Shown: positions 33,940 through 61,701 of the stretch, piece after piece | How positions within the stretch are numbered: position 1 is the stretch's first letter | Layout: each line of letters starts with the position of its first letter | Virus record (IMG/VR): IMGVR_UViG_3300025012_000067 | Span: 1-64,000 of that record | Length of the DNA: 64,000 bases | Strand: one strand, 5' to 3' | DNA from: a virus | Position numbers and translations under genes: made by a program | The notes under the pieces: generated by a model | What the model was told of the DNA's origin: nothing | Database searches by the model: none | Seen by the model: only the letters and a program-made list of their open reading frames with translations

Positions 33940-34848
33940 TTACATTTTATTTTTAGTGAAATATAGTTTAAAATCTGAAATATTATTTAAAAAATCTTTC
34001 ATTCCAAAGCGTTGACACCAACTGATAAATTTATCCACATCAATATTACTTTGAGTAAACCCAAATATAAAATCATTTTGCAAATCAGGATGAGGCAGAG
34101 TTACAACGGCTAAACATTCTTCTACAGTTTTCCAATTATCTTTTATTTTTTGTAATTGTTTTTCACTACATTCCTCTCTTAGATATTTTAATGCTGTTTT
34201 TTCACCAATGCCCTCTATTCCTTTTACATTGTCACTTGAACAACCACTTATTGCTTTCACCATATTCCAATCCAAAGGGTCAATTCCATATTCCTTTTGA
34301 AACCATTTATCAGTTTTTTTAATTTTATCGTCATTATTGTAAATAGTTACATGGTCATTTAAACATTGATACATATCCTCATCTTTTGTTGCCAAAAATA
34401 TTTCTTCGTTTGGATTTTGTAAACAATAAGCTGCCATTAAATCATCACTTTCATAACCCAAAATATAATTACCACCAAAACCTATTTCTTTACAGTATTC
34501 AACCAAATTTAAATATTCTTCTTTAAATTGTTTATTTAAATCTAATTCAAATTGAGTCAGTGGTTTTGTGTTTCTTTTTCTTTTATAATCAGGATAAACA
34601 TTTCTTCTTTTTGATTCATCACCAATATCCCAACAAATTATTGTTTTATTGGTATTTAGTTTTTTTGCAAGGGAAAGAATAGAACTGAAGAAACCATAGT
34701 AGACTCCCGTTTTAACATCATTATGAGTTAAAAAAGATTGCCCCTGAGAAAATCGACTTTTATATGCAAACCATTTACCGTCCACTACTAGAGTTCTCGT
34801 TCTTTCTTCTCGTTTAGGTATCTTCCTTTTTAATATTATTCGTTTCAT
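33940..34848 (-). CDS. 5'-3' exonuclease / FEN-type RNase H
   Basis: 302 residues. Acidic metal ligands in the family positions: TLVVDGKWFAY, IICWDIGDESKRR, YESDDLMAAY, ATKDEDMYQ, then the helix-hairpin-helix KGIEGIGEKTALKYL. It would remove RNA primers and 5' flaps and can act with the PolA-type polymerase, which lacks its own 5' nuclease. The N-terminus before the nuclease fold carries the basic tag KRIILKRK (residues 2-9) also seen on many other early proteins. Confidence 0.88.
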   Translation of the reverse strand: MKRIILKRKIPKREERTRTLVVDGKWFAYKSRFSQGQSFLTHNDVKTGVYYGFFSSILSLAKKLNTNKTIICWDIGDESKRRNVYPDYKRKRNTKPLTQFELDLNKQFKEEYLNLVEYCKEIGFGGNYILGYESDDLMAAYCLQNPNEEIFLATKDEDMYQCLNDHVTIYNNDDKIKKTDKWFQKEYGIDPLDWNMVKAISGCSSDNVKGIEGIGEKTALKYLREECSEKQLQKIKDNWKTVEECLAVVTLPHPDLQNDFIFGFTQSNIDVDKFISWCQRFGMKDFLNNISDFKLYFTKNKM

Positions 34849-35342
34849 TTTTTCCTCAATAGTAATTTTTTAGATTTCTTTTTCAATACTAATTTTTTAG
34901 GTTTTTCTTTTCTTTTCAATTGCATTTTTTGAACTGAAATTCTTTTAATTCCCAAAGTCAAAGTTCCAAGACCATCAACTTTCAATTTTTCATATAATTT
35001 AAAAATATAACCATCACAATCTTTTCCTTTTCCCTTTACTTCATCATATTCTTTTCTAAAAGTACTGTTGGGGTAGAATAAAGTCTCTTTGGTTCTTTTT
35101 CTTGTTAAAGAGTCAATAAAATAACGGTCAATGGTATAAAGGTCAATTCGTATATAAAATTCTTTGTTTTTCTTTTCTCCTTTTAACAAAGGAAAATCAG
35201 AACGTGTAAAAGGACCAATAGGTAAGACATTGTTTTTTATCAGTGCTCTATTATAAGTAACGTCATGTTGCTTTAACTCTGATAGTTCTTGGTCTGATAA
35301 TATTGGCCCATTACTTTTTTTCTTTAATTTCATTTTAATCAT
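34845..35342 (-). CDS. Hypothetical protein with basic tags at both ends
   Basis: 165 residues from ATG 35342 (AGAGG nine bases upstream; TTG 35348 rejected). Soluble beta/alpha body (FYIRIDLYTIDRYFIDSL, YIFKLYEKLKVDGLGTLTLG). The N-terminus is IKMKLKKK and the C-terminus is KPKKLVLKKKSKKLLLRKK, two copies of the recurrent basic-hydrophobic motif. Overlaps both neighbours, including the FEN exonuclease gene, so likely part of the replication machinery. Confidence 0.6.
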   Translation of the reverse strand: MIKMKLKKKSNGPILSDQELSELKQHDVTYNRALIKNNVLPIGPFTRSDFPLLKGEKKNKEFYIRIDLYTIDRYFIDSLTRKRTKETLFYPNSTFRKEYDEVKGKGKDCDGYIFKLYEKLKVDGLGTLTLGIKRISVQKMQLKRKEKPKKLVLKKKSKKLLLRKK

Positions 35343-35925
35343 TTTCAATTACCTCTTCTTCCATAACAAGTTCTGATATTTCCTTTTCCAATTTGTCATA
35401 ACAATTAATAATCATGGCATAATTCGCAACGCTTGCCCAATCTTCACGAATCATATTAACATTAAGTTTAGTAATCAAATCTTCTTTTGACAAAAAGGAA
35501 TTATCAAAGTCTTTACTCTGGTGCTCTTTCATAAAACGAAACTGCATGGAAAAAATAAATTCTTTCAAGTATTTAAAAATGATTTCCATTCTGTCTGTTT
35601 TAATATTTGTTTTTCTTTTTACATTAATATCATTATCAAGCATATCCTGAATTTGAATCAGGAAACCCAAATAATCCTGCCGTTTTTCATACTTGTCATT
35701 GGCAAAATCCCTGAAAATATCTCTTTTAATTTTATCCAACGAATCAAATACAAAACCCTCTTCGTGTTCTGTATATTGCAATTTCAGCTCTGTTCTTTCT
35801 GTTTGTTCAAAATAAATAATGGTTAATGCCAATCCAAGAGGGTGAAAGAAGGTTCTGTTGGCTTCCTGAAGGATTCCTTTGTCTTGTAATACACTCCTTA
35901 AATTTTCTTTTTCCAGATAAGCCAT
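35335..35925 (-). CDS. Hypothetical 196-residue helical protein
   Basis: AAAAGGAG upstream. Almost all helical, acidic at the C-terminus (ELVMEEEVIEND), with an FFHPLGLALTIIYFEQ hydrophobic helix near residue 30. The body is similar in style to phage small regulatory or structural replication proteins, but I recognise no family. It overlaps the following tagged gene. Confidence 0.5.
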   Translation of the reverse strand: MAYLEKENLRSVLQDKGILQEANRTFFHPLGLALTIIYFEQTERTELKLQYTEHEEGFVFDSLDKIKRDIFRDFANDKYEKRQDYLGFLIQIQDMLDNDINVKRKTNIKTDRMEIIFKYLKEFIFSMQFRFMKEHQSKDFDNSFLSKEDLITKLNVNMIREDWASVANYAMIINCYDKLEKEISELVMEEEVIEND

Positions 35926-35926
35926 T

Positions 35927-36226
35927 TCATCTTCTCCTTTTCAATTGAATTCGTTTAGGTTTCCTTTTCAATTCCACCCGTTTAATTTTGAACATTCTAA
36001 AATCTTTTCTACAAATTAAATCTTTAATGGTTTTTTTCTTTAATTTAAAAATATCTAAATCATATATTTTGTTTTCCTTTATTGATATTTTAGAACCTTG
36101 TTCACATTTATTGCAGAAAATTAATGACTCACAGAAGGACAGTGATTCTGATTGTGATTTAGCCTTTTCTTGCCTTTTTAAACATATTTCTGTTGAAAGC
36201 TGGCAATGATACCTTTCACACAGCAT
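35927..36226 (-). CDS. Cys-rich protein with tandem basic C-terminal tag
   Basis: 99 residues. N-terminal half has cysteines at 3, 8, 15, 32, 38 and 41 (CERYHC, CLKR, FCESLIFCNKC), a probable metal site. The C-terminus is KRVELKRKPKRIQLKRRR, two tandem copies of the recurring [KR][KR]-hydrophobic-x-L motif. This is one of the clearest tagged proteins. Function unknown. Confidence 0.6.
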   Translation of the reverse strand: MLCERYHCQLSTEICLKRQEKAKSQSESLSFCESLIFCNKCEQGSKISIKENKIYDLDIFKLKKKTIKDLICRKDFRMFKIKRVELKRKPKRIQLKRRR

Positions 36227-36294
36227 TTGTTTATCCCTTCACAAAAAGAGTCAATAAAATACGATTCCTTCCTATTGGTTATAGATAAATTGAA

Positions 36295-39025: not shown

Positions 39026-39298
39026 TTAGTCAAAGTAAAGTTTTCTTCCATTTCTTTTTCCAGTTTCTTCAATCTCAAGAACAAAACTTTCACATTCCAT
39101 TCCTAATGGTACTTCTGGAAAACTAGGATGTTCAATAACTATTCCCCAACACCTTGAAAAATCCCTAGGAAAAGCCTCACGCAGTTTTGTATATTCTGGA
39201 ATATTCTTAATTCGTATTTCTCCTGTCATAAGTTTAAGCATGTTTTCGTTTGAAATTGTCATTACTTTAAATCTTCTACTGTTGTTTCCATCATTCAT
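39026..39298 (-). CDS. 90-residue hypothetical protein
   Basis: AAAGGAAA upstream of ATG 39298; overlaps the Mre11-like stop. Contains NIPEYTKLREAFPRDFSRCWGIVIEHPSFPEVPLGMECESF, a pattern of short strands typical of small replisome accessories. It ends RKLYFD, a loose match to the RRFHFD/RKFDF C-terminal tags of other early proteins. No family recognised. Confidence 0.5.
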   Translation of the reverse strand: MNDGNNSRRFKVMTISNENMLKLMTGEIRIKNIPEYTKLREAFPRDFSRCWGIVIEHPSFPEVPLGMECESFVLEIEETGKRNGRKLYFD

Positions 39299-42149: not shown

Positions 42150-42533
42150 TTATTTCTCCTTTTGTTTTGGAATTAGTGTCCATTTTGGGTATCTTGGTTT
42201 TCTATCACAACAAAAAACGTCAGAAATATAATGTTGTAGCATAACCGCTGATTTATGTGCTTCTATATTTTCTTGTTCTGATTCAACAGCAATCCATTGG
42301 TTGAAGTCATTAGGGGGAAATCTTTCTTTATAATTGTACCATTTACCAATTTCTGGTTTTCCTAAAGTTTTATTCCTTTCTTCTGATAACTTTATATTTC
42401 TATCAAGTGTATTATGAAATTGTTCAACCTTTTTACTTGGATATGTGTCATTACTTGGTTGTCTGTCTTTATTATTTTCTTTTTTCTTTAATTCAACTTT
42501 CTTTGGTTTCTTTTTCAGGATTATTTTTTTCAT
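42150..42533 (-). CDS. Hypothetical protein with tandem N-terminal tag
   Basis: 127 residues. The first 18 residues are KKIILKKKPKKVELKKK after Met, two copies of the recurring basic-hydrophobic motif. The body is soluble, with KPEIGKWYNYKERFPPND and a late CCDRKPRYPKW segment. It overlaps the preceding gene by 41 bases with no strong ribosome site, indicating coupled translation. No family recognised. Confidence 0.55.
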   Translation of the reverse strand: MKKIILKKKPKKVELKKKENNKDRQPSNDTYPSKKVEQFHNTLDRNIKLSEERNKTLGKPEIGKWYNYKERFPPNDFNQWIAVESEQENIEAHKSAVMLQHYISDVFCCDRKPRYPKWTLIPKQKEK

Positions 42534-43885: not shown

Positions 43886-44425
43886 TTAAATTTTTACATA
43901 CATGGCTTTTCCATTTTCCAATATGATTCTATCAGGACAAAATTTATCAATTGCTTTTGTTGTCCCTTCCAAACAACCATAATCATCAAAGTACATAATT
44001 CCATCAGTAACCAGAAATGGTATAAGATATCTTATGCAATTCTTAATACTTTCATACTGGTCACAATCAATATGTGCAAAGGCAATTGGATTCATTCCAT
44101 ATTTAAAAGTGAAATCAAAGAATGTTTTGGGGAATACACCCGCAAATATTCTTGCTTCAGGAATTAATTTTTTAACCACTTCATAAGAACAATCAGCAAA
44201 ATCACCAACCAAGTGAGAATCAATTCCCGGTGTACTTTCTGGCATTCCTTCAAATGTATCAAACAACCATAATTCATTTCCTCTTTCTTTAGCCAATTGA
44301 TTCAAGTAATATGCTGTGCCACCCTTATAAACCCCAACCTCCACAAAAATACCTGTAGGGGTTTTTCTAGCTTGCTCAATAAGAAAAGAAACATTTTGTG
44401 GAGATACCAAAGTATGGACATTCAT
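43886..44425 (-). CDS. TylF-like SAM-dependent methyltransferase
   Basis: 179 residues. Class I methyltransferase features: FVEVGVYKGGTAYYLNQLA (SAM motif I), LWLFDTFEGMPE, FAHIDCDQYESIKNCI and MYFDDYGCLEGTTKAIDKF, the acidic metal-binding cluster of TylF/macrocin O-methyltransferases. These usually methylate sugar hydroxyls. With two GT9-like enzymes encoded elsewhere in the window, a sugar-modification role is attractive, although it lies in the early array. Start overlaps the preceding stop. Confidence 0.78.
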   Translation of the reverse strand: MNVHTLVSPQNVSFLIEQARKTPTGIFVEVGVYKGGTAYYLNQLAKERGNELWLFDTFEGMPESTPGIDSHLVGDFADCSYEVVKKLIPEARIFAGVFPKTFFDFTFKYGMNPIAFAHIDCDQYESIKNCIRYLIPFLVTDGIMYFDDYGCLEGTTKAIDKFCPDRIILENGKAMYVKI

Positions 44426-44754
44426 TTTGACCTCATGTGAAGTTTTCCATTATTATAAATAACCCATTTTAATTCAGTTTTATATTCAAATCCAAATACA
44501 AAATCACAGGCTTTTTCTGGTGTTTCAAATTCAACAAAAGTATACTCTGATTGGATACCTTCAAGGTAGACAGGCAACCTATCCCTTTTCAGAATATTCA
44601 GAAAAGGAATGGATTCAAATGCTTTGTAAGAGTCATAAAGAACAACTACGACTTTATCTTTATAATATTGGTTAATCCATAAATTTATTAAATCATCTCT
44701 TTTACAAAATTGATAATTTCCATATTTTGATTCCTTCAATTTAATCTTCATCAT
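44422..44754 (-). CDS. Hypothetical protein with N-terminal tag
   Basis: 110 residues from ATG 44754 (AGAGGA five bases upstream; a longer reading runs into the neighbouring gene). Begins MMKIKLKESKYG, a match to the recurring basic-hydrophobic tag. The body has short strands (KVVVVLYDSYKAFESI, YTFVEFETPEKACDF). It overlaps the C-terminus of the upstream exported protein. No family recognised. Confidence 0.55.
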   Translation of the reverse strand: MMKIKLKESKYGNYQFCKRDDLINLWINQYYKDKVVVVLYDSYKAFESIPFLNILKRDRLPVYLEGIQSEYTFVEFETPEKACDFVFGFEYKTELKWVIYNNGKLHMRSK

Positions 44755-45296: not shown

Positions 45297-46429
45297 TATT
45301 CCCACCTGTTTTTTCTATCTGGTTTAATTGCGTCCTCAATTTCAGCCCAATCTTTTTCTATCTTATCCACCAATTTTTCATATTCTTTTTTATTGTTTTC
45401 AATCAAATCAATAAATTCATCCCGTTTATACTTCTCATCATTCCATTCAATAACTTTAACTTGTGGCCCAAACAAATAATCTGTCATGGAACCGATATTA
45501 TCCAAACCGTAATCAAATAGAATAGTAAATTCTGCTTCCCTGAAGGGTTTTGCACATTTATTCTTTTTGAAAAGTGCATGGTCACGAACACCAAAGATTT
45601 TATCATGCCCTCTAAATGTTTTTTTCAATTTATCTTTTACCCGCAACCAACAAACTTGGTGAGAATAAAAATCCAATGCTTTTCCACCTGTTCTTTTATA
45701 TTTTTCTGCAAACATTCCACCACCAATATTTTCTCTCAATTGAGAAATCATAAAAATGGTAGCATCTTTCCCCTGTTGTTTTTCACAAAGGTTATTGAAA
45801 AATGCACCAGAAAAATATTTGGCTTTTTCAGCACCATAAGCGGCATCTTCATCCTTGTCTGTCTTCAATGCTTTTTCTGTTCTTTCCTTTTGTGCTGAAG
45901 AAACCATTGCATCCAAAGAATCAACAACGTATAAAAGACAATCACCCTGTTTTAAAGCATCAACTCTTCTTTGAACATCTCTACCAAATTCTTCACAGGT
46001 TTTAGAAGAAACCCATTCAATTGCTTTTACAAAATCTTCACCATAAAGGGACTCCAAGGGAAAATCCATAATCCCTTCTACATTATTATAAACCATAATC
46101 AGATTCTTAACCTTTGGGAAAACATAAGAAGGAAGGTTATTTTCTTTTTTAAATGTATGAAAAGCATTTGCTAACATTTCTAAATTACAAAGCGACTTGC
46201 CACTTGACTCATTTCCGACTATATTAATAACCCTACCCCTTGCCCATCCTCCCCTTCTTCCTTTTTGAGAAGCAGCAAGATTTAAAACAATGGAACCAGT
46301 ATTAAGAAAATCAATTCTTTCATTTTCCTTTTTTTCTTCTGGTTCTTCTGTCAATGCTTTTTTCAGAGATATTTTCTTTTTTGGTTTTTCTTCTTCAATA
46401 TGTTTATTACTCAATTTAAGACGGCTCAT
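45296..46429 (-). CDS. RecA/UvsX-type recombinase
   Basis: 377 residues. RecA core: INIVGNESSGKSLCNLEML (Walker A, GNESSGKS 72-79), DCLLYVVDSLDAM (Walker B) and a loop-2 region with FMISQLRENIGGGMFAEKYKRTGGKALDF. It would catalyse strand exchange with the SSB-like protein and Rad50/Mre11 proteins. The first 27 residues, SRLKLSNKHIEEEKPKKKISLKKAL, contain two copies of the recurrent tag before the ATPase core starts and are not part of a normal RecA. Confidence 0.9.
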   Translation of the reverse strand: MSRLKLSNKHIEEEKPKKKISLKKALTEEPEEKKENERIDFLNTGSIVLNLAASQKGRRGGWARGRVINIVGNESSGKSLCNLEMLANAFHTFKKENNLPSYVFPKVKNLIMVYNNVEGIMDFPLESLYGEDFVKAIEWVSSKTCEEFGRDVQRRVDALKQGDCLLYVVDSLDAMVSSAQKERTEKALKTDKDEDAAYGAEKAKYFSGAFFNNLCEKQQGKDATIFMISQLRENIGGGMFAEKYKRTGGKALDFYSHQVCWLRVKDKLKKTFRGHDKIFGVRDHALFKKNKCAKPFREAEFTILFDYGLDNIGSMTDYLFGPQVKVIEWNDEKYKRDEFIDLIENNKKEYEKLVDKIEKDWAEIEDAIKPDRKNRWE

Positions 46430-47673: not shown

Positions 47674-48810
47674 CTAAAATGGAATTGCCCCAATTGTTTT
47701 GTCCAGCATTTTTGAGTATAAGTCATCAACAATGGCTTCAATGGCTTCTTCTTTATCCATTTCAGCCGCATCTTCATAATCATTTTCTTCGCACCATTTT
47801 TTAAACTTAAATCTATTCATATCCCCAAGTTTTTCTTTAAGCCCCTCAAGTTTTTCAAGAAGGGCATCCTCATCAATTTCTTCCTCTTCATCTTTCTTTT
47901 TATCTTTATCCTTTCCAAACTTTTTCTTTTTATCCTTTGGTTTGTCTTCTTCTTCCTCTTCATCACTTTCACCACCCCCTTCAGTCAGCATGGATTCCTT
48001 GACTTCTTTATATTCAGGAATATGCAAAAACATTTCCAGAGGATGTTTATAATTGCATTCTTCTGCTGCTTCAATGATTTCTTTCAATTGGGAAAGAACT
48101 TCATCAGGGATAGGTTCATCCCTTCCCAAAAGTGAAAATCCTTTATATTCGGGAAAATCATCTTTATTTTTCTGAATCTTTTCAAAATTAACCGTTCTGC
48201 CTTCTCCATCTTCATCAACGTCAGAAATATCAAGAGTGGTTTTCTTTTTCTTATCCCTGACAAGAATCTGGATTTCAGCATGTACTTTTGTTTTCGGAGC
48301 ACCCCAAAGATACAATTGATATTCGGGGTCTTTATTTTCTGCCAATTCTTCTGTTCTATCCCAAAGCAGATAAATTTCCCTGTCTGTGGGATAAAGTTTT
48401 TTGATTTCATCCGTAGGTTTAGCACCTTTAGGGTGTTCCCTGTATTTCAATTGCTGTTGTTCACAACGATAGCAGGGTTTTCCATTATACCGAAGCAAAC
48501 AAAGAAAAATATCATTGGCAATGCCTGTACCAAAATGGACGGAACAACCAAAATGATAGGGAATATCCGATTCATAAGAAACCGGGAGAATTTCAAAGTA
48601 ATTATCCCCCTTGTGAGGTTGATATTCTTTGATATTGAATTCTTCCAATTTTTCCTGATTGAAATAAGATTTTCCACCACCACCTGCTTTACTTCTATCC
48701 TCCCTTTCATTGTACGTTTTTTCAAGAATAGTTTTATCCCTCTTTTTGAATTTTCCGCGGATATCAGAATCAGACGATTTACCTTTTCCCAATTTCTTTT
48801 TCAAAGCCAT
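47674..48810 (-). CDS. Single-stranded DNA-binding protein (gp32-like)
   Basis: 378 residues. Core with FEILPVSYESDIPYHFGCSVHFG, FLCLLRYNGKPCYRCEQQ (zinc-site Cys pair) and YLLWDRTEELAENKDPEYQLYLWG, matching phage zinc-containing ssDNA-binding proteins. A long acidic/basic disordered segment (about 280-320) precedes a helical end, and the last residues are IGAIPF, like the IPF end of bacterial SSB that recruits partners. It would coat ssDNA at replication forks. N-terminus MALKKKLGKGK is a weak match to the tag. AGGAGG upstream. Confidence 0.72.
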   Translation of the reverse strand: MALKKKLGKGKSSDSDIRGKFKKRDKTILEKTYNEREDRSKAGGGGKSYFNQEKLEEFNIKEYQPHKGDNYFEILPVSYESDIPYHFGCSVHFGTGIANDIFLCLLRYNGKPCYRCEQQQLKYREHPKGAKPTDEIKKLYPTDREIYLLWDRTEELAENKDPEYQLYLWGAPKTKVHAEIQILVRDKKKKTTLDISDVDEDGEGRTVNFEKIQKNKDDFPEYKGFSLLGRDEPIPDEVLSQLKEIIEAAEECNYKHPLEMFLHIPEYKEVKESMLTEGGGESDEEEEEDKPKDKKKKFGKDKDKKKDEEEEIDEDALLEKLEGLKEKLGDMNRFKFKKWCEENDYEDAAEMDKEEAIEAIVDDLYSKMLDKTIGAIPF

Positions 48811-48826: not shown

Positions 48827-49342
48827 TTAGTAATCCTCTGTTGTTTTTAATGGGTGCTTTTTCTTTGTTACAAATTGGTGATTATCAACATAGTAACTAT
48901 TAACCCACATATCATAAAGCAGTTTTATCATTCTTCCCCTTTCTTGAATATTGTTTAATGTAATAGAAAACTCATCTTCTTTTGCTTTTGCAAAACAATA
49001 AGCTGAAAATGCCCGTTTATATGTATCTTGATTCTTTACCTCCTTTGTGATTACGGTATCACTTGTTTTATCCAAACCGTACAATTTTGGATTTTTTCTC
49101 ATTTCTTTTGATAATTCTGATTCAATGATTTCTAACCTATTTTTTGCCCTTAATGCTGCCTCTCTTGCTTTTGGCAGAATTTTGGATATTTTGTTAAATA
49201 ATTCAATTTGTTTAACAGCAGCATCATCCAGTTTGAATTTATCTATTTGCAGATTATTAATAATGAATTCTAAATCACTTTCTGATTTATTACTCCTTTC
49301 TTCCTCTGAATTTTCTTTTGATTTCAAGGATAGTTTTTTCAT
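48827..49342 (-). CDS. Tagged helical protein upstream of SSB-like gene
   Basis: 171 residues. Starts MKKLSLKSKENSEEE, a clear copy of the recurrent N-terminal tag followed by an acidic linker. The remainder is helical, with KAREAALRAKNRLEIIESELSKEMRK. Sits directly before the SSB-like gene. No family recognised; possible replication accessory. Confidence 0.55.
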   Translation of the reverse strand: MKKLSLKSKENSEEERSNKSESDLEFIINNLQIDKFKLDDAAVKQIELFNKISKILPKAREAALRAKNRLEIIESELSKEMRKNPKLYGLDKTSDTVITKEVKNQDTYKRAFSAYCFAKAKEDEFSITLNNIQERGRMIKLLYDMWVNSYYVDNHQFVTKKKHPLKTTEDY

Positions 49343-49788: not shown

Positions 49789-50736
49789 TTAAAAAGTGAA
49801 ACGTCTACGAATGGTTTCCGTGGAATTATCCAACTGTTCTTTGATTTCCCCCAATTGATTATGAATCAATTTAACCAAAGAATTATCATCTCTCAAATCT
49901 TTGGGAGAAACACCCCTGACTACCTCTTTCGCTTTCTTAATCAACAATTCTAATTCACTATCTTTAAATACGTTTTTAGATTGGAACTCATTGAAAAATT
50001 CAGATACTTTTTCAAGGGATGTTGCCCTAATTCTCCTTTCTTCTCCATCAATCTTTCCCGAAAGAGTATCAGTCAAATGATTTACGATTTCTGCAAACCC
50101 TTCCCGCAATGCAATAACAGCTTCCGTCTTAGCCTGTTGCATCAAATCATTAAACCGTTTTGTTTCTTCTTCTTTGATTTCATTGGTGATGGAAGAGGGA
50201 ACAGTCATTTCAAAGAATCTCCAATAAATACCAAACCTAGATTTAATATTAATTGGATAATCTGCTTCATTGAAAGATTCCTCCCCCAATTCTTCCTTAG
50301 CTTCCAAAATGTATTCAGAGTATTGTTGGGAAAATTCTTCTACTCTGACTCCCATTTCATCAGCAATGGTTCTCAGACCACTATTGATTTTTTCAACAGC
50401 ATTATTGGGAATAAAGTAAATACCTTTGATTGGAAAAGGAAGGGCATAGGAATTAATCATTTTTCTGGATTCAGAAATATAAGATTGAATGTCTTCCAAT
50501 TTTTTCCTATTAATCAGGTTTTTATTGGCTTTCATCCAACCCTTTTCAAAATCCTTACCATATTTTTTAGCTTTATCTTTGGGAATTCTTTTTACCGCTT
50601 GCCAACAATGGGATTCAAACTGAAGAAGGGTTCCAAGGTTAAAGATATTAATCTCATTCGATTTACCCGTTGCGATTTTTGGTCTTTCTTTTCCTCTCAA
50701 TTTTAGCCTTTTAATTTTACCCGTTTTCTCATTCAT
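49789..50736 (-). CDS. DUF3150-like protein with tags at both ends
   Basis: 315 residues, GGAGGAAGTA upstream. N-terminus contains GKIKRLKLRGKERPK (residues 6-20), C-terminus ends IRRRFTF: both match the recurrent tag. The centre, YALPFPIKGIYFIPNNAVEKI, FSQQYSEYILEAKEEL and FGIYWRFFEM, resembles DUF3150 proteins, which are found next to AAA+ ATPases. A Ycf46-like AAA+ gene lies a few kb upstream. Family match moderate; the functional link is inference. Confidence 0.6.
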   Translation of the reverse strand: MNEKTGKIKRLKLRGKERPKIATGKSNEINIFNLGTLLQFESHCWQAVKRIPKDKAKKYGKDFEKGWMKANKNLINRKKLEDIQSYISESRKMINSYALPFPIKGIYFIPNNAVEKINSGLRTIADEMGVRVEEFSQQYSEYILEAKEELGEESFNEADYPINIKSRFGIYWRFFEMTVPSSITNEIKEEETKRFNDLMQQAKTEAVIALREGFAEIVNHLTDTLSGKIDGEERRIRATSLEKVSEFFNEFQSKNVFKDSELELLIKKAKEVVRGVSPKDLRDDNSLVKLIHNQLGEIKEQLDNSTETIRRRFTF

Positions 50737-51014: not shown

Positions 51015-51506
51015 TCAATCAAAATGAAATCGCCTATTTATTTTTCTTATTGTTTTCTTAATTTCTTCTTCGTTCTTTGTATCCATAAAATATGTACCAA
51101 GCACACCAACAAATTTAAATTCAAGACAAACGTAATTGCTACCTACTTTCTGACTTATCTTTGTATCCTTTATATATCCATAAATTAAACCATATTGTTT
51201 GTTTTTAAAACTTAAACAAACTTCATTTTTAATATCATTTGAATCAAAGAATGTTCCACTTGTAACTATATCAATTTCAATTGTTGTTGGTGATTGTCCA
51301 ATTATTTCTCCAGAATTGCCTAATAATTTTCTAGTCACCACATTGAATTTAAGTGGTTCTACAATACTAAATATTTTGTATTTGGTTTTTACAGTGTTAA
51401 ATTGAATATCTATAGGTAAAAATTCCCTTTGTGCTGTTTCAATGTCTACTTCTATTTTATATTCATCATATTTTTCTTTTATATCAAATGAATCACTTAA
51501 ACTCAT
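51015..51506 (-). CDS. Hypothetical protein with C-terminal RRFHFD tag
   Basis: 163 residues, AAAGGAGG upstream. Beta-rich body with FLPIDIQFNTVKTKYKIFSIV, TTIEIDIVTSG and NYVCLEFKFVGVLGTYF. The last residues, RKINRRFHFD, are nearly identical to the end of the next gene upstream (RKINRRFHF), though the rest differs. No family recognised; the shared end points to a common partner. Confidence 0.6.
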   Translation of the reverse strand: MSLSDSFDIKEKYDEYKIEVDIETAQREFLPIDIQFNTVKTKYKIFSIVEPLKFNVVTRKLLGNSGEIIGQSPTTIEIDIVTSGTFFDSNDIKNEVCLSFKNKQYGLIYGYIKDTKISQKVGSNYVCLEFKFVGVLGTYFMDTKNEEEIKKTIRKINRRFHFD

Positions 51507-51521: not shown

Positions 51522-52313
51522 TTAAAAATGAAATCGCCTATTTATTTTTCTATTAGCCAGCATTTCCTTTTTCTTTTCTTCTTCCAATCTCTTTAAAATA
51601 AATTCTTTTCTATCAGCCATATATTTTAAAAAATCCCCATTTAAACTTTTACCAATAAATTCAATAAAAACCTCAGTATTATCAATAGATAATACTTTTA
51701 GCAACCCCTCATAACTATACTGTCTATTGTAATTATTGTTTGTATAATTATAAACCATTCTTTCTATATAATTTGGTGTTTCTTCTTTTTTATTTTCATC
51801 CAACACATTAAATGCAAATGTTCCCTTTACATATTTTACATCTTTAAATTCATTTTTATTGTTACAAAATATGGAGAATACTATTTCATCTCTAGAATTT
51901 TTTTCTACAGAAGAAAATATTACATTACTTAGTGCCTTTGTTGGTGTATATCTGTCATTATACCCAATCCTCTTTTGTTTAAATATGGCATTGGTTACTT
52001 CAATTCCAAGGCTTACTTTTTCTTTCTTTTTAAATTTTCCCCTTACACTTTTTATTTCTTTTTCCCTTATTCTACTTTCAATTTCTTTTAATTTATTTTG
52101 TACTTTATTTTCAATGAATTTATTTACATCAGTGAATTTTCTCACATTTACCAAATCAACCGTAATAGTATTTTCAACTATTCCAATAATTGCTTCTACA
52201 ATATCATCAAAATCATATCCATCAATTTGATTATCATTTTTTCCTTCAAACCAAGTATCAATTCTTTCTTCAATTTCAACTCTTTCATAAGTTGTCAGTC
52301 CATCTTTTCTCAT
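51522..52313 (-). CDS. Hypothetical protein with C-terminal RRFHF tag
   Basis: 263 residues. N-terminal half acidic/helical (TTYERVEIEERIDTWFEG), middle contains RIGYNDRYTPTKALSNV, also found in part in the protein at 59223-59597, and the C-terminal 20 residues after KKKEMLAN are RKINRRFHF. Its ribosome-binding site GGGAGG lies in the 3' arm of a hairpin (52324-52354), suggesting translational control. No family recognised. Confidence 0.6.
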   Translation of the reverse strand: MRKDGLTTYERVEIEERIDTWFEGKNDNQIDGYDFDDIVEAIIGIVENTITVDLVNVRKFTDVNKFIENKVQNKLKEIESRIREKEIKSVRGKFKKKEKVSLGIEVTNAIFKQKRIGYNDRYTPTKALSNVIFSSVEKNSRDEIVFSIFCNNKNEFKDVKYVKGTFAFNVLDENKKEETPNYIERMVYNYTNNNYNRQYSYEGLLKVLSIDNTEVFIEFIGKSLNGDFLKYMADRKEFILKRLEEEKKKEMLANRKINRRFHF

Positions 52314-53768: not shown

Positions 53769-54305
53769 TCAATGAAGATTCAGTTTTCTACCGGCAGCAA
53801 CAGGTTTTGTTTTCAATTGAATTTTCTTTCTGATTGGTTCTCCTTTACTACTGGCAGCACGAAACATTTTAGCTTTCTTCCTGATTTCATCCATTTCTTC
53901 TTTTCTGAAACTGGATAGCAAAGGAATATTATTCATTGCCGTATCCAAATCATCGAAATGGGAATCTTTAGCCAATTGTTCAATTTCAGCACCAGTCCAT
54001 TGTTGTTCAGCCAATTCTTTACAGAAATTGGAATCGGTAGGAAGTTTTGAATGATACCGCCTATTCATAATTTCAATGATAACTTTTACTTCATTTTCAT
54101 TTGGCGTATCAACGAACCAAATACAATCCCACCTACCAGCACGAAGAAATTCTGGAGGTAATTTTGATAAATCATTTGCAGTAGCAATAACAATTCCTTC
54201 TGATTTACGCTCTTGCATCCATGTTAAAAAATAACCCAACATCCCTTGACTTACACCAGAATCAAGATTTTGACCGGACGCACCTGCAAAGGCTTTTTCA
54301 ATCTC
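53769..54305 (-). CDS. AAA+ ATPase (Ycf46-like), exon 2
   Basis: 178 residues after splicing, starting EIEKAFAGASG, which completes the Walker B motif begun in exon 1 (CIVILD-EIEK). Contains sensor 1 in IVIATANDLSKLP and the arginine-finger region FLRAGRWDCIWFVDTP, then a helical lid. The C-terminus, KKIQLKTKPVAAGRKLNLH, carries two copies of the recurrent terminal tag. The frame is open upstream to an ATG in the intron, but the natural product is the spliced 496-residue protein. Confidence 0.85.
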   Translation of the reverse strand, partial: EIEKAFAGASGQNLDSGVSQGMLGYFLTWMQERKSEGIVIATANDLSKLPPEFLRAGRWDCIWFVDTPNENEVKVIIEIMNRRYHSKLPTDSNFCKELAEQQWTGAEIEQLAKDSHFDDLDTAMNNIPLLSSFRKEEMDEIRKKAKMFRAASSKGEPIRKKIQLKTKPVAAGRKLNLH

Positions 54306-55240
54306 CTTTTTTGTTTTGGAATAATCGTTTCCATTATTCCTCTTATGATTTCTCATAAGTTCGGACTATATCTTCAAATAACAAGCCTTCCTTTTTGGCT
54401 TTTCTAACTACCCTTTTGTAGCATAAGACACAAAGGCCCAAAGCATAATGTTTTCTTTCGGTTGTTTCGCAAACTTTGCATAAATCATGGTGTTTGCTCC
54501 AAAATCCACTTTTTATTGTTCTTCTTCCTTTTACTAAATCATACTTGTGGATTTTAATGTGACATGTTCTGCATAAAGTTTGCAAATTACTAAGTTTATT
54601 GTTTGGTGTTTTATGCTTTCTACCATTACCATCAATATGATGCACAGTTAATTTAGGAATATCTTTTTCCCCACATTTTTGACAAGTATAATTATCTCTT
54701 TCTAAAGCTAATTCTCTTTTACCACCAAAATGTAGTTGTTCTCTACGCATTTTGCCATATTCTTTTGGTTGTTTTTTAAGCCATTCACTTTTGTGTTTCT
54801 TGCTTTTTTCTTTGTTTTGTGGGTTATTACGATATTTTTCTAAATAACATTTTGTGCATAATCCCTTTGCTTGATGACGGTAACGAATAGAACGGCACCC
54901 TTTGCATCTACCACGTTTCTTGGACCACATAATAAAATCTCCCTTGTCCTATTTTGTGCTGAAAACTTATTTTAAGAATATAGGATAGAGAATTTATGAA
55001 GTCAAGAAAATAAAGGAATTTTTGTTATTTGTCCCCCATTTCGGATTCACTTGAATCCTACTCCCTTACGGGATAGTCTCTGAACCTTCACCATTTTAAA
55101 GGCACTTGGCTGCTGATTGCCCAATCCAATTGATTTTCAAACATTCACGCTTGCCGTTTCCAGCTACGTTGTAGTTCAATTGGCTCTAAGGGGTTTCCAG
55201 CAATTAAGGGGATTTATACTGAACAAGATTAGATTTGTTT
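54306..55240 (-). other. Group I intron (IA2-like) in AAA+ gene
   Basis: 935 nt. The 5' exon end ATACTGGAT (55249-55241) pairs with the internal guide GTTCAGTAT (55224-55216) as a 9-bp P1 with the required U-G pair at the splice site; the last intron base (54306) is G. Core elements are readable: TTGCTGGAAACCCCTTAGAGCC-type P3/P4 region (55182-55203), CAATCAGCAGCCAAG Q segment (about 55106-55120), GTTCAGAGACTA S segment (about 55073-55084) and a GGATTCAAGTGAATCC P9 hairpin (55043-55058). Removing it restores LD-EIEK and an intact frame. The HNH gene lies in its 3' half. Confidence 0.92.
54343..54930 (-). CDS. Intron-encoded HNH homing endonuclease
   Basis: 195 residues wholly inside the intron, AGGGAG upstream. 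Central HNH: YTCQKCGEKDIPKLTVHHIDGN then LSNLQTLCRTCHIKIHK (zinc Cys pairs, catalytic HH, Asn and His). It is flanked by two similar zinc-knuckle arms, CKGC...GLCTKCYLEKY near the N-terminus and CKVC...GLCVLCYKRV near the C-terminus, likely for DNA recognition. It should cut intron-less AAA+ alleles and spread the intron. Confidence 0.9.
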   Translation of the reverse strand: MWSKKRGRCKGCRSIRYRHQAKGLCTKCYLEKYRNNPQNKEKSKKHKSEWLKKQPKEYGKMRREQLHFGGKRELALERDNYTCQKCGEKDIPKLTVHHIDGNGRKHKTPNNKLSNLQTLCRTCHIKIHKYDLVKGRRTIKSGFWSKHHDLCKVCETTERKHYALGLCVLCYKRVVRKAKKEGLLFEDIVRTYEKS

Positions 55241-56194
55241 ATCCAGTATTACAATACATCTTCCAAAAGCGTCAATTGTTTTGCAGGCATGTCTTACATT
55301 TTTTTCTGTTTCACCAACGATTCCACCTTTTAAAGAACCTACGTCAAGAATTATTCCTGGCCAATCAAAAATAGAAATAATTGCCTTTGCGGCCATCGTT
55401 TTACCTGTTCCGGGAAAACCGGCCATCACCATTGATTTTATTTTTGGTTTTATACTTCCCTCAATAAACGCTTCTTTTCTTTTAAAAATATACTCTTTTA
55501 ATTTATCTAACCCTCCTAAATTTTCTATTGGTTCTGGGTTTATAAAATCCATAAATCCAGTTTGTCTTATTACTTGCCTTTTTCTTTCTAAGACTGTTTT
55601 TGTATCCAATTTTTTATGTTCAATGAGCGACAGGGCTAAAATGCTTTCAACCTCTTCATGACTTAATCCTAGACAAGCGGAAATCAATTCTTCAGATACA
55701 TGGAAATCGAATTCCTTTTTATTCTTATCATAATCTTTGGATTGTTTAAAATCTTCTTCCGCTGTGGTGGAAATAATTTCTGCAATCTTCCTGATTTCTT
55801 CTTTATTGGGAAGATTGAACTCAATTACAGGAATCAGTTCTTTTAAAATAACGGGAATCTTGGATGAGGAATTTCCTACCATTACCAAACAAACCTGATT
55901 GGATTTATATGTTTCATAATTATTCAGGAATGTTTGCATAATAATGGGGTTTTCCAGAAACAAATCAAAGTTTTCCAGAATGATTGCCTTTTGTTGTAAT
56001 TCAGTTGCCTTGTTAAGAATTTCAACTTGATTGGCTTCTTCCTTTTGTTTATTAACTTCCAATCCTGTTACAAAGTCCCATTCCAATTTCTCAAATGGCA
56101 AATCAACTGAAATGGATTTAACACAGCGTTTAATTTCAATTGCCTCACAAAAAACAGAAGCATAACCAGCCCTAAGATAGTTTGTAATTTGCAT
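55241..56194 (-). CDS. AAA+ ATPase (Ycf46-like), exon 1
   Basis: 318 residues up to the splice site. N-terminal alpha/beta domain (ITNYLRAGYASVFCEAIE, QQKAIILENFDLFLENP) as in Ycf46, then NPEPIENLGGLDKLKEYIFKRK linker and Walker A GFPGTGKT (residues 259-266), GETEKNVRHA and the first half of Walker B, CIVILD. Without splicing translation stops after three more codons, removing the second half of Walker B and the arginine finger. GAAAGGAG upstream. Partner genes DUF1257 and DUF2997 lie just downstream. Confidence 0.88.
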
Positions 56195-57094: not shown

Positions 57095-57298
57095 TTATTT
57101 ATTTCCTGATAGTTTATACTGACAAGCAGCATAAAATCCTGACATAAACAACATAAATTCTTTTTCATTTTCTGTTGCCTTATCCAAATGTTGTTTATTT
57201 AATCTCATGTACATTTGAAATTTTCCTTTACCAACAGCATAATCATCAAAATTTGTTTGAAAATCTTTTGTTGTTCCTTTTAATTTAATTCTTTTCAT
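57095..57298 (-). CDS. Tagged small protein, paralogue A
   Basis: 67 residues, AAAGGGGAATAGT upstream. Begins MKRIKLKGTTKD; body MYMRLNKQHLDKATENEKEFMLFMSGFYAACQYK aligns (in shorter pieces) with the next gene. Helical, one Cys. The tag and body are both shared with the neighbour, so the pair arose by duplication. Confidence 0.6.
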   Translation of the reverse strand: MKRIKLKGTTKDFQTNFDDYAVGKGKFQMYMRLNKQHLDKATENEKEFMLFMSGFYAACQYKLSGNK

Positions 57299-57301: not shown

Positions 57302-57478
57302 CTATTCCCCTTTATCCCTTTTACATTTGGCATAATAGCCAGCAAGGAACAGATACATTTCTTTTCCTTCATCCTTCATTTTATCAATATGAACCCTATT
57401 CATTTTTATAAATCTGTCAAAACATTTTACCCCTTCTGAATATGTTTTATTTTTTTCCTTCAGTTTAATTCTTTTCAT
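57302..57478 (-). CDS. Tagged small protein, paralogue B
   Basis: 58 residues from ATG 57478 (GGAG six bases upstream; the longer in-frame reading contains that site). Begins MKRIKLKEKNKTY; body FIKMNRVHIDKMKDEGKEMYLFLAGYYAKCK matches paralogue A in pattern. Unknown function; both probably bind the same partner through the KRIKLK start. Confidence 0.6.
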   Translation of the reverse strand: MKRIKLKEKNKTYSEGVKCFDRFIKMNRVHIDKMKDEGKEMYLFLAGYYAKCKRDKGE

Positions 57479-57479
57479 A

Positions 57480-57791
57480 TTATCTCCATTTCCTTTTTCC
57501 ACGTTTCATTTTGTAATTGAATTTCTCAAAATGTTTTTCTTTTGTTTCTTTAATTTTTGGCAATTCAATAAGTGTTTTTGCTGTTAATTCTGCAATTGCT
57601 AAATTAAAGTTTTTGGCTGCTTCTTCAGCCTCTTTATGTGCTTTCCCCATTGCTTCTGACAACAACTCAATTTTAAATTTTAATTCTCCAAACGTTGCTG
57701 ATGTTGATTTACATTTTAGTAAACCTGTGGGCATTTTTGAAATCTTGTCCACAATAAGAATTCTTTTTCCACCCTTATAAATTTCAGACAT
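57480..57791 (-). CDS. 103-residue hypothetical helical protein
   Basis: AAAGGAATTAAT upstream. Starts GGKRILIVDKISKMPTGLLKCKS, then a long helix (SEAMGKAHKEAEEAAKNFNLAI) and a basic end (KMKRGKRKWR). Lies between the polymerase half and the paralogue pair. No family recognised. Confidence 0.5.
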   Translation of the reverse strand: MSEIYKGGKRILIVDKISKMPTGLLKCKSTSATFGELKFKIELLSEAMGKAHKEAEEAAKNFNLAIAELTAKTLIELPKIKETKEKHFEKFNYKMKRGKRKWR

Positions 57792-57804: not shown

Positions 57805-59216
57805 TCAAATATAGGAAAAAGACCAATTTTCTAGTTTATACAGATTACCTTCCTTGTCCTTTTTCCCTGCCAGAATCTTTGCAATTAAATCAACATCCAT
57901 TCCTATATCAGTTGTAAATCCATGCAGGAATTTTTCTCTAAATACTTCTTCTGATTTAATATGTTTTGCTTCAAACCATTTATTTTCCAATTTCAAATTG
58001 TACCAGCTATCATCAGACAACTCGAATTCAGCTTCTAGGTTAATTTTTTTAAGCCAATCAAATGATTTGTGAGTCATTTCATATTCAATTAAATCCATAA
58101 CCTGTTCTGCTTCTCTTCTCACAATATTAAAAAATCCAGAGTCATGAATCTGACCAACCAATTTAGATTGTAAATCCAATTGTTCCATTTTCTTTTCAAT
58201 TTCAATCAATGAATGAAGGAGTAAATGAAAACTTGTTGACTGTATTGGAAAATTAATTATTTCATTACGCTTCATTGGGTATCTTCTTCTAAACCCAAAT
58301 TTGTTCTCTACATAGCCAACGTCATAATATTTTTTTACTACCCATTCTTGCCATGCTTTTACATCTTTATATCGGTCATAAAAAACATTTTGACATTCCT
58401 GAATATGTTGTTCCGAATACTCTTTAAAAAAATCATTCCATGAGGATTTAAACCCCTTTGATTGTCTTGCTTTTTCAAATGCTTTTCTTACAAATTCAAC
58501 GTAAATTCACTTTTACGCATTTCCTCCGCAATTGAAGTATTGCCAGCACCAAAGAGATTGGCAAAGGTAAAGTTATTCTTTGCAAGGAATCTTTCTTCAG
58601 TGTGTATCTTTTTTATTTCCTCAATTGCTTTATTGATTCCGAATAAAACGCCAGCCCAATGTGAGTGTTGGTCGAATCCATTATTTAAATCAGTAATCAA
58701 TTGTTCATCGTCTGCTTCAGCGGCGGCAACTTTAACTTCAGCACCAACATAGTCAACTTCACCAATGAATCCATTTTGAATTGTAAATTCTATTTCTCCA
58801 GCTTTTATCTTTTCAATTAATAATTTTCTGGTGAATATTTTACGAATCGTTTGCCACTCAATACCGGGAATAATTTCACCGTGTTTTGGCAAATTCTGAA
58901 AATTTGGGTTTGATGAAGAACTCCGATAAGTTTTTGTTGTGTTAAGCCAAAAATCAGGATGAATCATTCCTTCCAATTCATCCTTATATCTTCTAAATCC
59001 CCTTGCATAAGTATTTCTTGCTTTTTTCAATTTACGTATATTCAACAGTAATTTGCAGAATTCAACTTCATCTTTCTCTGCATGATGAATTAATATTTCT
59101 TCTGCTACCGAATAATTACCTTTATCATTCTTTGCCCTTGGTGGTTTCAATTCTAGGAATTCATATAAAAACTCCTGAAGCTGCATATTACTTTGGGTAT
59201 TGAATAACATATCCAT
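57805..59216 (-). CDS. PolA-type DNA polymerase, polymerase half, with one frameshift
   Basis: Begins ATG 59216 with its own GGAG and encodes FNTQSNMQLQEFLYEFL (fingers/thumb junction), the TYRSSSSNPNFQNLP strand, motif A (GEVDYVGAEVKVAAAEADD), and the O-helix region RFLAKNNFTFANLFGAG. The frame then stops at 58490-58488, but coding continues in another frame (EFVRKAFEKARQSKGF ... RRRYPMKRNEIINFPIQ, motif C QIHDSG) to 57805. One extra base near 58497 would give a 470-residue protein. Motif C has HDS where HDE is usual. The exonuclease half is the separate gene 60037-61701. Confidence 0.85.
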
Positions 59217-59222
59217 TTTATT

Positions 59223-59597
59223 CTATACTCCATGAATTGCTTCACTAATTTTATTAACCTGTTTACCATAATTCTTTGCAAAATTTTTATTCTTTTCTTT
59301 TTCTCTTTGTTCCCTCAATTTCTCTCTACTCATAAGCAATGCTTTCAAGGCATTCCATTTATAAAATCCATATTCATTCCAAGAAATATGTTCTAACAAT
59401 TGACCACGTTTAAATTGTTTTGTATTATTGGGGAGATTTTTATTTATTTCTTTTACCATTACATCTGCTCTTGCATAAACATCTTCAATTTTCAAATCAA
59501 TTGGAACTTTATGATTTTTCAATAATTCTTCAATTTTTGCCAAACCCAAATGGGTATATCTGTCATTATATCCTTTTACATATTTGCTCTTGTTCAT
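59223..59597 (-). CDS. 124-residue protein with GYNDRYT motif
   Basis: ATG 59597 chosen (GGGAG eight bases upstream); a longer in-frame reading starts in the neighbour. Begins NKSKYVKGYNDRYTHLGLAK, a motif shared with 51522-52313 (GYNDRYTPTKAL). C-terminal half is a charged helix (SREKLREQREKEKNKNF). It lies between the two DNA polymerase gene parts. No family recognised. Confidence 0.55.
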   Translation of the reverse strand: MNKSKYVKGYNDRYTHLGLAKIEELLKNHKVPIDLKIEDVYARADVMVKEINKNLPNNTKQFKRGQLLEHISWNEYGFYKWNALKALLMSREKLREQREKEKNKNFAKNYGKQVNKISEAIHGV

Positions 59598-59799
59598 TTC
59601 TTTTCTCCCTAAAATATCTAATTGATTGCAAATTATCCAGTGTGTGAAATAAATCACAAAAAACCAAATCATAACGTATTCCAAGACATTTAATAGAATC
59701 ACATAAATTAGAATAAAAATTTATTGCTTTATTTAATTCTTCATCTGTAAAACCTTCACCAATAATAATTTTTTCAGTAATATCTTTACTAATTATCAT
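59566..59799 (-). CDS. 77-residue hypothetical protein
   Basis: AAAGGAGAAGAGAA upstream. IISKDITEKIIIGEGFTDEELN, helical with three Cys (LCDSIKC, FCDLF). Overlaps both neighbours. No family recognised. Confidence 0.5.
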   Translation of the reverse strand: MIISKDITEKIIIGEGFTDEELNKAINFYSNLCDSIKCLGIRYDLVFCDLFHTLDNLQSIRYFREKRNEQEQICKRI

Positions 59800-60040
59800 T
59801 TCTCTTCTCCTTTAATTTTGCATCCATTCTATTAAGAGCTTCATTTAATTCTTTATAGGGTGTGCTTTCTTTTTTGTCATTGTTTTCCTTTTCTACAAAA
59901 TACCAATTTCCTTTATGCCTGTGAGGTACATTATATTTTGCATACCAACGCCATTCTCTATTGCAAAAAACCCAACCAATACAGTAACCAAAAACAAAGA
60001 TGGTAAAAACGATAACCAATATATTCATAATTAATATCAT
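59789..60040 (-). CDS. 83-residue membrane-anchored protein
   Basis: AAGGAGAAGAGAA upstream, identical to the next gene's site; the start overlaps the UDG-exonuclease stop (ATGA). N-terminal membrane helix ILVIVFTIFVFGYCIGWVF (about residues 7-25), then a soluble basic part (CNREWRWYAKYNVPHRHKGNWYFVEK). Unknown function; first of three small genes separating the polymerase parts. Confidence 0.55.
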   Translation of the reverse strand: MILIMNILVIVFTIFVFGYCIGWVFCNREWRWYAKYNVPHRHKGNWYFVEKENNDKKESTPYKELNEALNRMDAKLKEKRNDN

Positions 60041-61701
60041 TTCTCTTCTCCTTCCGTAAAATCAAATTTTCTATTAATCAACCGAATCTTTTTAGGTTTA
60101 GAAAAACATAAATCTTCCAATTGCTTATCATTCTTTTTCTTCTTTGTCTTTGAACTTTTTGATTCCAAATGCTTGTTATATTCTTGAATTTCCGGTATCT
60201 CCATTATTTTCTTTTCTATTCTTTCAATTTCTTTTTCCAAGAACAATTCAAAATCTTTTAATTCCTGTTCACCAATATTAACTCCTCTTTGACTCATTCT
60301 GGCAAACAACCAATGACCTTCATTCAAGAATTCGTAATTCTCTCTGGCTTTAGGATAGGAATCCAACAAATCTTTTTCAAATAAAACCCACTGATTAAAT
60401 GCTGTAATAACGTCAAGGCCGTTGTATTGAATCATATCTTGTTTTGGTGCTTCTCTGATTTTATTTACTTTCTGAAACGTATATGCTTTTGCTTCATCCA
60501 ATTCAATGATTTCTTCCATCTCATCTTCTGAATCATCCGATTCAATTTCCTTGGCTTTCTTATCCGTTATCAAATATTTCTTTATGGTTTCATTATAAGG
60601 AGGAATTCCAAACCGTATTAAATTCTGGAAATCCAATGAAGTACATCCTTCTCTTTCATCAATTACGTGTTGCGCCAGCATGGTACAAAATGAATTCTTT
60701 ATTTCTTTTATTCCATAAACAAACCTAGAACATAAATCTTCAAACTTGCTGTTCTGAACTACTTTCAATACTTTCTGATTAACCAGAATCCTTTGCATTT
60801 GACGTTTGAACCAAATCTTTACGAATGGATTATCTTTCCAAAAATCTTCATGGAAAACCCAAGCATTTGTTTTATTTCCAAAGGCAGCATAAACAATTTC
60901 AAAATGATTATCATAAGGAAACAAATTAGTGGTTTCATAGTCAAGGCAAATGGCTTTAGATTTATTCCAAAGTCTGAATAATTCCTTGGCTTCATGGAAA
61001 TCAGTTACTTCTTTTATTTCAATATTCTCAAGAATTTTTCTTTCTTTCAGAACTTTGTTGACCTCCGTTCTTTTATGAAATTTCTTATCCCATAATTCAA
61101 ATATTCTTTGTAAGTCCCATTTATAAGCATGTTCGTAATAATAACTTAGTTCTTCCTCTTCTTTTCTGGTGTTATACATTTCATAATTATAAGGGTCGTA
61201 AACAGGAAAAACCAGACAGTTGTATTGGTAATTAGGAATGATTCTGTTTCTTAATTTTGAAATGGCATATTTGTTTTTCAACCCAAAAATATATTTAAAA
61301 GCCAATTCACCACAACAGATAATCAATTTAGGACGTAATTCTTTAAGACGTGCATCTAAAATACTTTGACAGCATTTAAAATGTGTATCAGAAGTTTTCT
61401 TTTTGGTAGGGTTATAGCAGGAAACAGCATGAAGCATTGCGGCTTGTTTTGATAAATTAATTCTGAATTTTGCGGCTGTACTTCTCAATATTTTTGAACG
61501 GGAATCAGCAAAAGGAAATCCCTTTTCATCATCATGTTTTGATGCTTTGTTTCCTAAAATAATTAATCCTTCGTATTGTTCTCCAACATACATTTGCATT
61601 TCTGGGGATTGAATTTTATTATTCTTTAAAGTGCATTTGTTGCAATCAAAATTAGTTTTTGATTTTCTTTCTATGGAGGGAAATTCAAAATAGAAAGACA
61701 T
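60037..61701 (-). CDS. UDG-like domain fused to 3'-5' exonuclease (N-terminal half of PolA-type polymerase)
   Basis: 554 residues. Residues 1-200: uracil-DNA-glycosylase superfamily (CNKCTLKNNKI, GLIILGNKASKHDDEKGFPF, CYNPTKKKTSDTHFKCC, RPKLIICCGELAFKY), with Cys residues placed as for a Fe-S type. Residues 240-450: DnaQ-like exonuclease (AICLDYETTNLFPY, VVQNSKFEDLCSRF, MIQYNGLDVITAFNQW). Then the polymerase thumb begins (LFARMSQRGVNIGEQELKD) but stops; the rest is 57805-59216. UDG-exo-PolA order is known in some phages such as SPO1. It ends KKIRLINRKFDFTEGEEK, two copies of the recurrent tag. Confidence 0.85.
   Translation of the reverse strand: MSFYFEFPSIERKSKTNFDCNKCTLKNNKIQSPEMQMYVGEQYEGLIILGNKASKHDDEKGFPFADSRSKILRSTAAKFRINLSKQAAMLHAVSCYNPTKKKTSDTHFKCCQSILDARLKELRPKLIICCGELAFKYIFGLKNKYAISKLRNRIIPNYQYNCLVFPVYDPYNYEMYNTRKEEEELSYYYEHAYKWDLQRIFELWDKKFHKRTEVNKVLKERKILENIEIKEVTDFHEAKELFRLWNKSKAICLDYETTNLFPYDNHFEIVYAAFGNKTNAWVFHEDFWKDNPFVKIWFKRQMQRILVNQKVLKVVQNSKFEDLCSRFVYGIKEIKNSFCTMLAQHVIDEREGCTSLDFQNLIRFGIPPYNETIKKYLITDKKAKEIESDDSEDEMEEIIELDEAKAYTFQKVNKIREAPKQDMIQYNGLDVITAFNQWVLFEKDLLDSYPKARENYEFLNEGHWLFARMSQRGVNIGEQELKDFELFLEKEIERIEKKIMEIPEIQEYNKHLESKSSKTKKKKNDKQLEDLCFSKPKKIRLINRKFDFTEGEEK

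Follow-up and report, generated by a model that had tools for sequence, protein, structure and literature searches.

Sliding clamps act as toolbelt hubs for proteins that carry the β-clamp-binding motif (QLxLF) or the PIP box (PMC11139829, PMC9690074). In bacteria, the C-terminal tail of the single-stranded DNA-binding protein (SSB) has an interactome of its own (PMC10143822, PMC7913777), and the C-terminal region of T4 gp32 has been described as well (PMC11551737). T4 UvsX and gp32 form condensates, which place a phage recombinase and a gp32-type SSB in one assembly (PMC11951158), and the Chimalliviridae jumbo phages import proteins into a phage nucleus (PMC11087766). Here we describe a short basic-hydrophobic tag, [KR][KR][ILVF]x[LF], at the ends of unrelated DNA-metabolism proteins of an uncultured phage. 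The tag was noticed in a stretch of 64,000 nucleotides (positions 1 to 64,000 of IMG/VR record IMGVR_UViG_3300025012_000067; hereafter the window), which is part of a contig of 74,877 b. In the open-access literature we found no description of a shared terminal motif in phage replication proteins.

One close parallel is the clamp motif. Like the β-clamp motif and the PIP box, the tag is a short linear sequence, often terminal, which occurs on unrelated replication and repair proteins, has a hydrophobic-x-hydrophobic core and would serve one hub. It differs from both in lacking the anchor glutamine and the trailing aromatic pair and in having basic flanks. The β-clamp pentapeptide has Gln at position 1 and ends in Leu-Phe or similar, and the tag has neither feature; a Gln ahead of the basic residue is found in 6% of tags (family-weighted). 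Also unlike the clamp systems, no clamp was detected in the clade of the window, nor in any tagged genome, with the two Pfam models PF02768 and PF09116, a weak negative because the same models also missed an annotated Vibrio phage clamp.

The contig has 32% GC. Its structural genes (portal, protease, capsid, tape measure) point rightward and its DNA-metabolism genes leftward. For the tag statistics we used the whole contig, defined minus-strand products as early and plus-strand products as late proteins, and took the first and last 25 residues as ends. The early proteins contain 25 terminal matches in 18 genes compared to 3 internal ones (6.15 vs. 0.31 per 1000 positions), which makes the motif about 20 times commoner at the ends than inside. 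Shuffled terminal segments gave 4.9 matches on average, and none of 2000 shuffles attained 25. Late proteins have no terminal and 5 internal matches. The initial annotation had reported a recurring terminal peptide on at least fourteen early proteins and had staked this claim on the motif being commoner at ends than in internal or shuffled segments and on its conservation in relatives. The peptides quoted there are present at the genes named, the enrichment is stronger than claimed, further carriers exist beyond its list, and the tag is conserved. Because that pattern had been picked after looking at the sequence, we also scanned 5375 five-residue class patterns without preference. The pattern bbhxL ranked first among all 5375 in the window genome (18 genes, 3 internal matches, nominal p 3e-14). 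Nominal p-values exaggerate significance, and lone scan values of about 1e-8 in other genomes are untrustworthy by themselves; in 12 draws of a rotated-protein null, however, the best p-values ranged from 8e-4 to 5e-10, so that the window value lies outside the null.

Relatives were gathered by a DnaB search, which gave 15 IMG/VR contigs, and by RecA and SSB alignments, which added more; large contigs were read over their full length. A search of IMG/VR with a single RecA protein returned no match, whereas the DnaB query did find relatives, and a nucleotide-level search of named phages found no relative of the window. The pre-specified tag is enriched at the ends of proteins encoded on the DnaB strand (or RecA strand) in G000, G003, G004, G005, G007, G008, G010 and G028 (p 3e-14 to 8e-4). 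No terminal enrichment was seen in G002 (p 0.1), where RecA, SSB and polymerase had no assigned orthologue. Counted per family over about 25 related, deduplicated contigs, the tag is found at the C-terminus of all 26 DUF3150 proteins, mostly as KRKLTF or KRKLSF, in all members of the 78301 (15/15) and 34845 (13/13) families, in 11 of 12 UDG-exonucleases, in 21 of 24 members of the 48827 family and, often in tandem, in 7 of 8 members of the cysteine-rich, probably zinc-binding 83017 family. The AAA+ ATPase is tagged in 15 of 21 cases, and two of the untagged sequences are upstream pieces of split genes with a tagged downstream piece. RecA matches the strict pattern in 17 of 23 cases, and several of the others have Ile for Leu (MKRINIK). 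Other conserved proteins are essentially untagged: DnaB (1/16), primase (0/11), SbcC (0/16), 37375 (0/10), 35335 (0/10), the polymerase body (1/18) and SSB (3/25). The earlier statement that no late protein carries the tag holds for this contig and fails in relatives G002, G003 and G008, where the small subunit of the terminase (phrog_4102) carries it N-terminally. Since a packaging protein is thus among the carriers, they are better named DNA-transaction than early proteins; the gene itself was not seen on the contig of the window. Examination of Tunturiibacter phage Tunturi_3, which has a DUF3150 homologue, and Edwardsiella phage ZHS yielded no convincing tag.

The tag has also moved. In the 48827 protein it is N-terminal in the window, L050 and G010 and C-terminal in 18 relatives. 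In a maximum-likelihood RecA tree, calculated without the first 30 residues, the RecAs of the window type (G000, G010, L050) are nested among untagged RecAs, in a group that is supported at its base (100/99); the other 20 tagged RecAs form a separate group (100/99). A single clade of all tagged RecAs is rejected (log-likelihood difference, dlnL, 80.2; approximately unbiased test, p-AU, 2.6e-61). On the strength of this nesting and of the rejected constraint, the RecA of the window is, as judged from the tree, a foreign (xenologous) type that gained the local tag independently.

In a group of sister phages (L065-L086, G016, G017, G019, G021) the tag is replaced by another type. An RKIKRR-like sequence is found at the N-terminus of RecA (13/13) and at the C-termini of 48827 (at least 10/11), the resolvase (5/5) and 37375 (7/7), and in the genomes where they were found DUF3150 proteins (3/3) and AAA+ ATPases (2/3) end in KRKLD[IVT] or KRKIDT. 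These phages, L071 included, encode a different polymerase family. A third type, RRRR, is carried by RecA, the 48827 homologue, the RuvC-like resolvase and SSB of L057/G013 and of a cultivated phage, Vibrio phage SD2 (L005); in SD2 it lies at the N-terminus of RecA and at the C-termini of the other three. Both types are supported by orthology more than by scan p-values; a whole-genome test of the RKIKRR type was strong in G016 and G021 and weak in G017 and G019. Because of its end-specific conservation, the swap between ends, the independent gain in RecA, the polar x position and the replacement in sister phages, the tag is strongly supported, by sequence comparison, as a selected, lineage-specific docking motif. 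It has the general properties of short linear motifs: it is short and terminal, sits on unrelated proteins and was gained independently.

Over ten families the consensus is Lys/Arg, Lys/Arg, Leu/Ile (82%), a polar residue (Lys, Thr, Gln, Ser, Asn) and Leu (71%) or Phe (29%), and the residue that follows is Lys or the end of the chain. The second basic, the hydrophobic and the Leu/Phe classes were preset by the search, while the first basic position (Lys/Arg in 71%), the polar x and the following position were free. Copies of the Phe type are confined to positions at or near the C-terminal end. The aligned tags contain neither the R-G-R-P core of AT-hooks nor the S/T-P-K/R-K/R core of SPKK motifs. 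Polar and hydrophobic residues alternate, which suggests that the tag is bound as an extended strand.

All copies in the window lie on the minus strand. The FEN-type exonuclease (gene 33940-34848; phrog_107, E 5e-28) carries an N-terminal KRIIL (34831..34845), and its homologues have MQRLKL, MQRINL, MKKLNL or MPKLKL. Gene 34845-35348 has a C-terminal tandem of KMQL, KKLVL and KKLLL (34857..34928) and also a relaxed N-terminal KMKL (35325..35336; MKLKKK), absent from the earlier list, for which relatives have MARLKLK or MPRIQLK. Tandems are likewise found at the C-terminus of gene 35927-36226 (KRVEL and KRIQL, 35942..35983) and at the N-terminus of gene 42150-42533 (KKIIL and KKVEL, 42489..42530), whose syntenic gene in L051 begins MKKLILKKKPKRIKL. 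RecA (gene 45296-46429; UvsX-like phrog_97) carries RLKL and KKISL at its N-terminus (46364..46423), and the neighbour of the SSB gene, gene 48827-49342, has an N-terminal KKLSL (49325..49339). The DUF3150 protein (gene 49789-50736; Pfam E 2e-7) is tagged at both ends, by KRLKL (50698..50712) and, at its exact C-terminus, by RRFTF (49792..49806). Genes 51015-51506 and 51522-52313 both have a C-terminal RRFHF (51021..51035 and 51525..51539), and their syntenic L051 genes end in NRKFTF and TRRIHFD, respectively. An N-terminal KRIKL is shared by genes 57095-57298 (57281..57295) and 57302-57502 (57461..57475). Two carriers in the window were missing from the earlier list, gene 39026-39298 with a C-terminal RKLYF (39032..39046; RKLTF in relative G004, family 3/3) and gene 61872-62156 with an N-terminal KRILL (62100..62114). 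Beyond the window, gene 64693-65106 has a C-terminal PRRFNL and gene 66821-67012 an N-terminal TKLNL, a relaxed form of the motif. The relaxed N-terminal KIKL of gene 44422-44805 (44737..44748) is doubtful and was not accepted as certain, because only 1 of 21 homologues is tagged. We also rejected KKLSL of gene 43183-43872 as a certain tag; it lies inside a conserved KxLSLW/Y stretch of the protein body and is probably coincidental.

Two tagged proteins come from split genes. The AAA+ ATPase gene (53769-56194) consists of two open reading frames that match phrog_8638 at 147-371 and 372-494, with a further frame (54343-54930) between them, and relatives have a single gene of 500 aa. The downstream piece (53769-54356) has C-terminal KKIQL and RKLNL (53775..53828), where relatives end KPRKLKLN. 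The split looks like an intron or homing insertion; the group I intron models of Rfam gave zero matches in 28-64 kb of the window. The DNA polymerase (57805-61701) is encoded, in relatives as well as in the window, by separate genes for the UDG-exonuclease and the polymerase, the latter of which has a further break in the window (58488-59216 and 57805-58275). The UDG-exonuclease part (60037-61701; phrog_17) carries KKIRL and RKFDF at its C-terminus (60058..60093), and the usual terminal form in its homologues is RRKLSF. Elsewhere on the contig, the first open reading frame (window 1-2019) has 58% GC inside a phage of 32% GC and no PHROG match, while in relatives the large terminase sits before the portal gene; a chimeric assembly end or a recent insertion is possible. 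A protein of 243 aa encoded beyond the window (72010-72741) consists mostly of Cys-Ser-Asp/Asn-Cys repeats.

Which protein could read the tags? The window encodes an untagged gp32-like SSB on the minus strand (47674..48810; Foldseek match to RB69 gp32, E 2e-5), in whose AlphaFold2 model an OB core is followed by a disordered acidic linker and, at the C-terminus, by a helical module. A second candidate hub or scaffold is the 62983 protein (minus strand, 62983..64000 in the window, gene to 64485, 500 aa), an acidic multidomain protein that was modelled as all-helical and contains a homologous repeat pair (97.6%). In most tagged genomes these two rank near the top in acidity among the large early proteins. 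Of 30 records searched, 2 contain the 62983 protein, and these are precisely the tagged records of the window type. The C-terminal module of SSB has, on average, a higher acidity in the sister phages, whose tags are more basic (tags +5.9 with modules -11.4, vs. +2.5 with -7.2). A hidden Markov model of that module detects further copies in G016 (E 1e-7) and G021 (E 9e-7), in acidic, linker-rich proteins encoded next to DnaB. No significant copy was found in the SSB of G016 itself. The bacterial SSB interactome and T4 gp32 offer a precedent, in that an SSB recruits many DNA enzymes by its C-terminal part, with acid-base complementarity, and a gp32/SSB-type protein with an acidic C-terminal part is present in the window. 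There, however, the peptide is on SSB and the pocket on the client, and here the geometry would be reversed because each client, not SSB, carries the peptide. A second element, [ST]L[KRQ]x[RK]L, occurs at the N-terminus and in the linker of SSB and in 62983 proteins of several relatives (G003 70991 and 80204, window 47674-48810), and the RecA tag is followed by an LRERLK-like stretch; we rejected the element as part of the same system, as too few proteins have it.

We infer, with considerable confidence, that the tag is a docking motif for a protein. In the mechanism that we propose, the motif [KR]-[KR]-[ILVF]-(polar)-[LF] would sit on flexible ends of proteins at work on DNA during replication or recombination, namely RecA, the flap exonuclease, the UDG-exonuclease, the AAA+ ATPase, the DUF3150 protein and 48827, to which relatives add the small subunit of the terminase. 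Bound as a short extended strand, it would fit its two hydrophobic side chains, which alternate, into a groove and set its basic residues against acidic rims; avidity would be tuned by the number of copies, from one to four in each protein. The groove would belong to acidic helical modules of a SAP-like kind, located at the SSB C-terminus and in 62983 or its sister-phage counterpart, so that many clients could be collected on SSB-coated DNA. Taken as a whole, this is our best explanation, held a little short of an even balance; the assignment of the hub to these modules is its least certain part and is offered tentatively. Several observations weigh against that assignment. The distribution of the 62983 protein may simply reflect shared descent within a clade; searches of the PDB with its sequence and its fold gave nothing significant, a comparison with viral folds gave no match, and its modules show no significant sequence similarity to the SSB C-terminal domain of the window clade (clade A). 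SSB type is only modestly associated with the tags (10/11 vs. 14/31 without a Zn-type end, Fisher p 0.012), with descent as a confounder, and in RRRR-type phages SSB carries the basic tail itself, which is ill-suited to an SSB hub there.

That the motif docks onto a different hub (DnaB, 37375, DUF1257, an unrecognised clamp, another phage protein or a host replication factor) is possible enough to be taken seriously: several conserved proteins are untagged, and some sister phages have, in our reading, an apparent two-domain clamp beside an acidic protein (G017_4007, G016_14659, G021_68902). A hub bound to the polymerase is made less likely by the sister phages, which tag the corresponding proteins despite their different polymerase family, and the tagged genomes gave no clamp match, a weak negative as said above. 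The initial annotation had suggested that the tags dock to one hub; a selected docking element is borne out, and the single partner is a matter of inference. It is rather improbable that the tags are nucleic-acid-binding tails which raise DNA affinity and have no protein partner. Such tails would suit the basic composition and the carriers, which are DNA-transaction proteins, and the RKIKRR and particularly the RRRR types of other lineages fit this idea. In the window type, however, the hydrophobic positions are kept as well as the basic ones, x is polar, acidic residues often follow the tag directly (KPKRINLKED, RIQLECK), and DnaB, primase, the polymerase body and SbcCD have no tag.

A membrane or compartment targeting signal, which the basic-hydrophobic composition might recall, is very unlikely: each copy has only two hydrophobic residues and may stand at either end, the exact C-terminus included. 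The import system of the Chimalliviridae resembles our proposal in that a recognition system encoded by the phage brings chosen proteins together at its DNA; it differs in that the genomes of the window type are far smaller and an explicit linear tag is present. No shell protein, import factor or membrane organiser was recognised among the annotated proteins, in a survey that made no search aimed at them, and SSB and 62983 are better hub candidates than a membrane or shell. For the clade of the window it is scarcely credible that the tags are non-functional, whether as lysine-rich coding ends of AT-rich genomes or as duplicates of one terminal sequence, as the paralogue-like genes 57095 and 57302 could suggest, in view of the composition-matched shuffles and internal controls, the conservation in distant relatives, the end swap and the independent gain.

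An extension of the proposed docking mechanism, which we consider somewhat unlikely as it stands, is that several lineages have interchangeable address labels (KRIxL, RKIKRR, RRRR), and that the acidic hub modules which read them, on SSB and on a multivalent scaffold, are likewise particular to each lineage. Such labels would gather proteins of replication, recombination and packaging initiation into one DNA-centred assembly or condensate, which a foreign gene, e.g. the RecA of the window, would join by taking the local label. For the T4 UvsX-gp32 condensates, by comparison, no shared terminal tag has been described.

An arrangement of motif plus hub is already known; in the open literature that we searched, nothing matches this motif, its replacement from lineage to lineage or the reversed geometry. 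Our analysis points to modular wiring in viral DNA metabolism, in which labels are gained, moved between ends and swapped between lineages on overlapping sets of enzymes, and it places the 78301, 48827 and 34845 families and DUF3150 in one functional network. The tag may serve as a short recruitment tag for engineering, and the RRRR-type tail in a cultivated Vibrio phage opens part of the system to bench work. How foreign replication genes are built into mosaic phage genomes thereby becomes a testable question.

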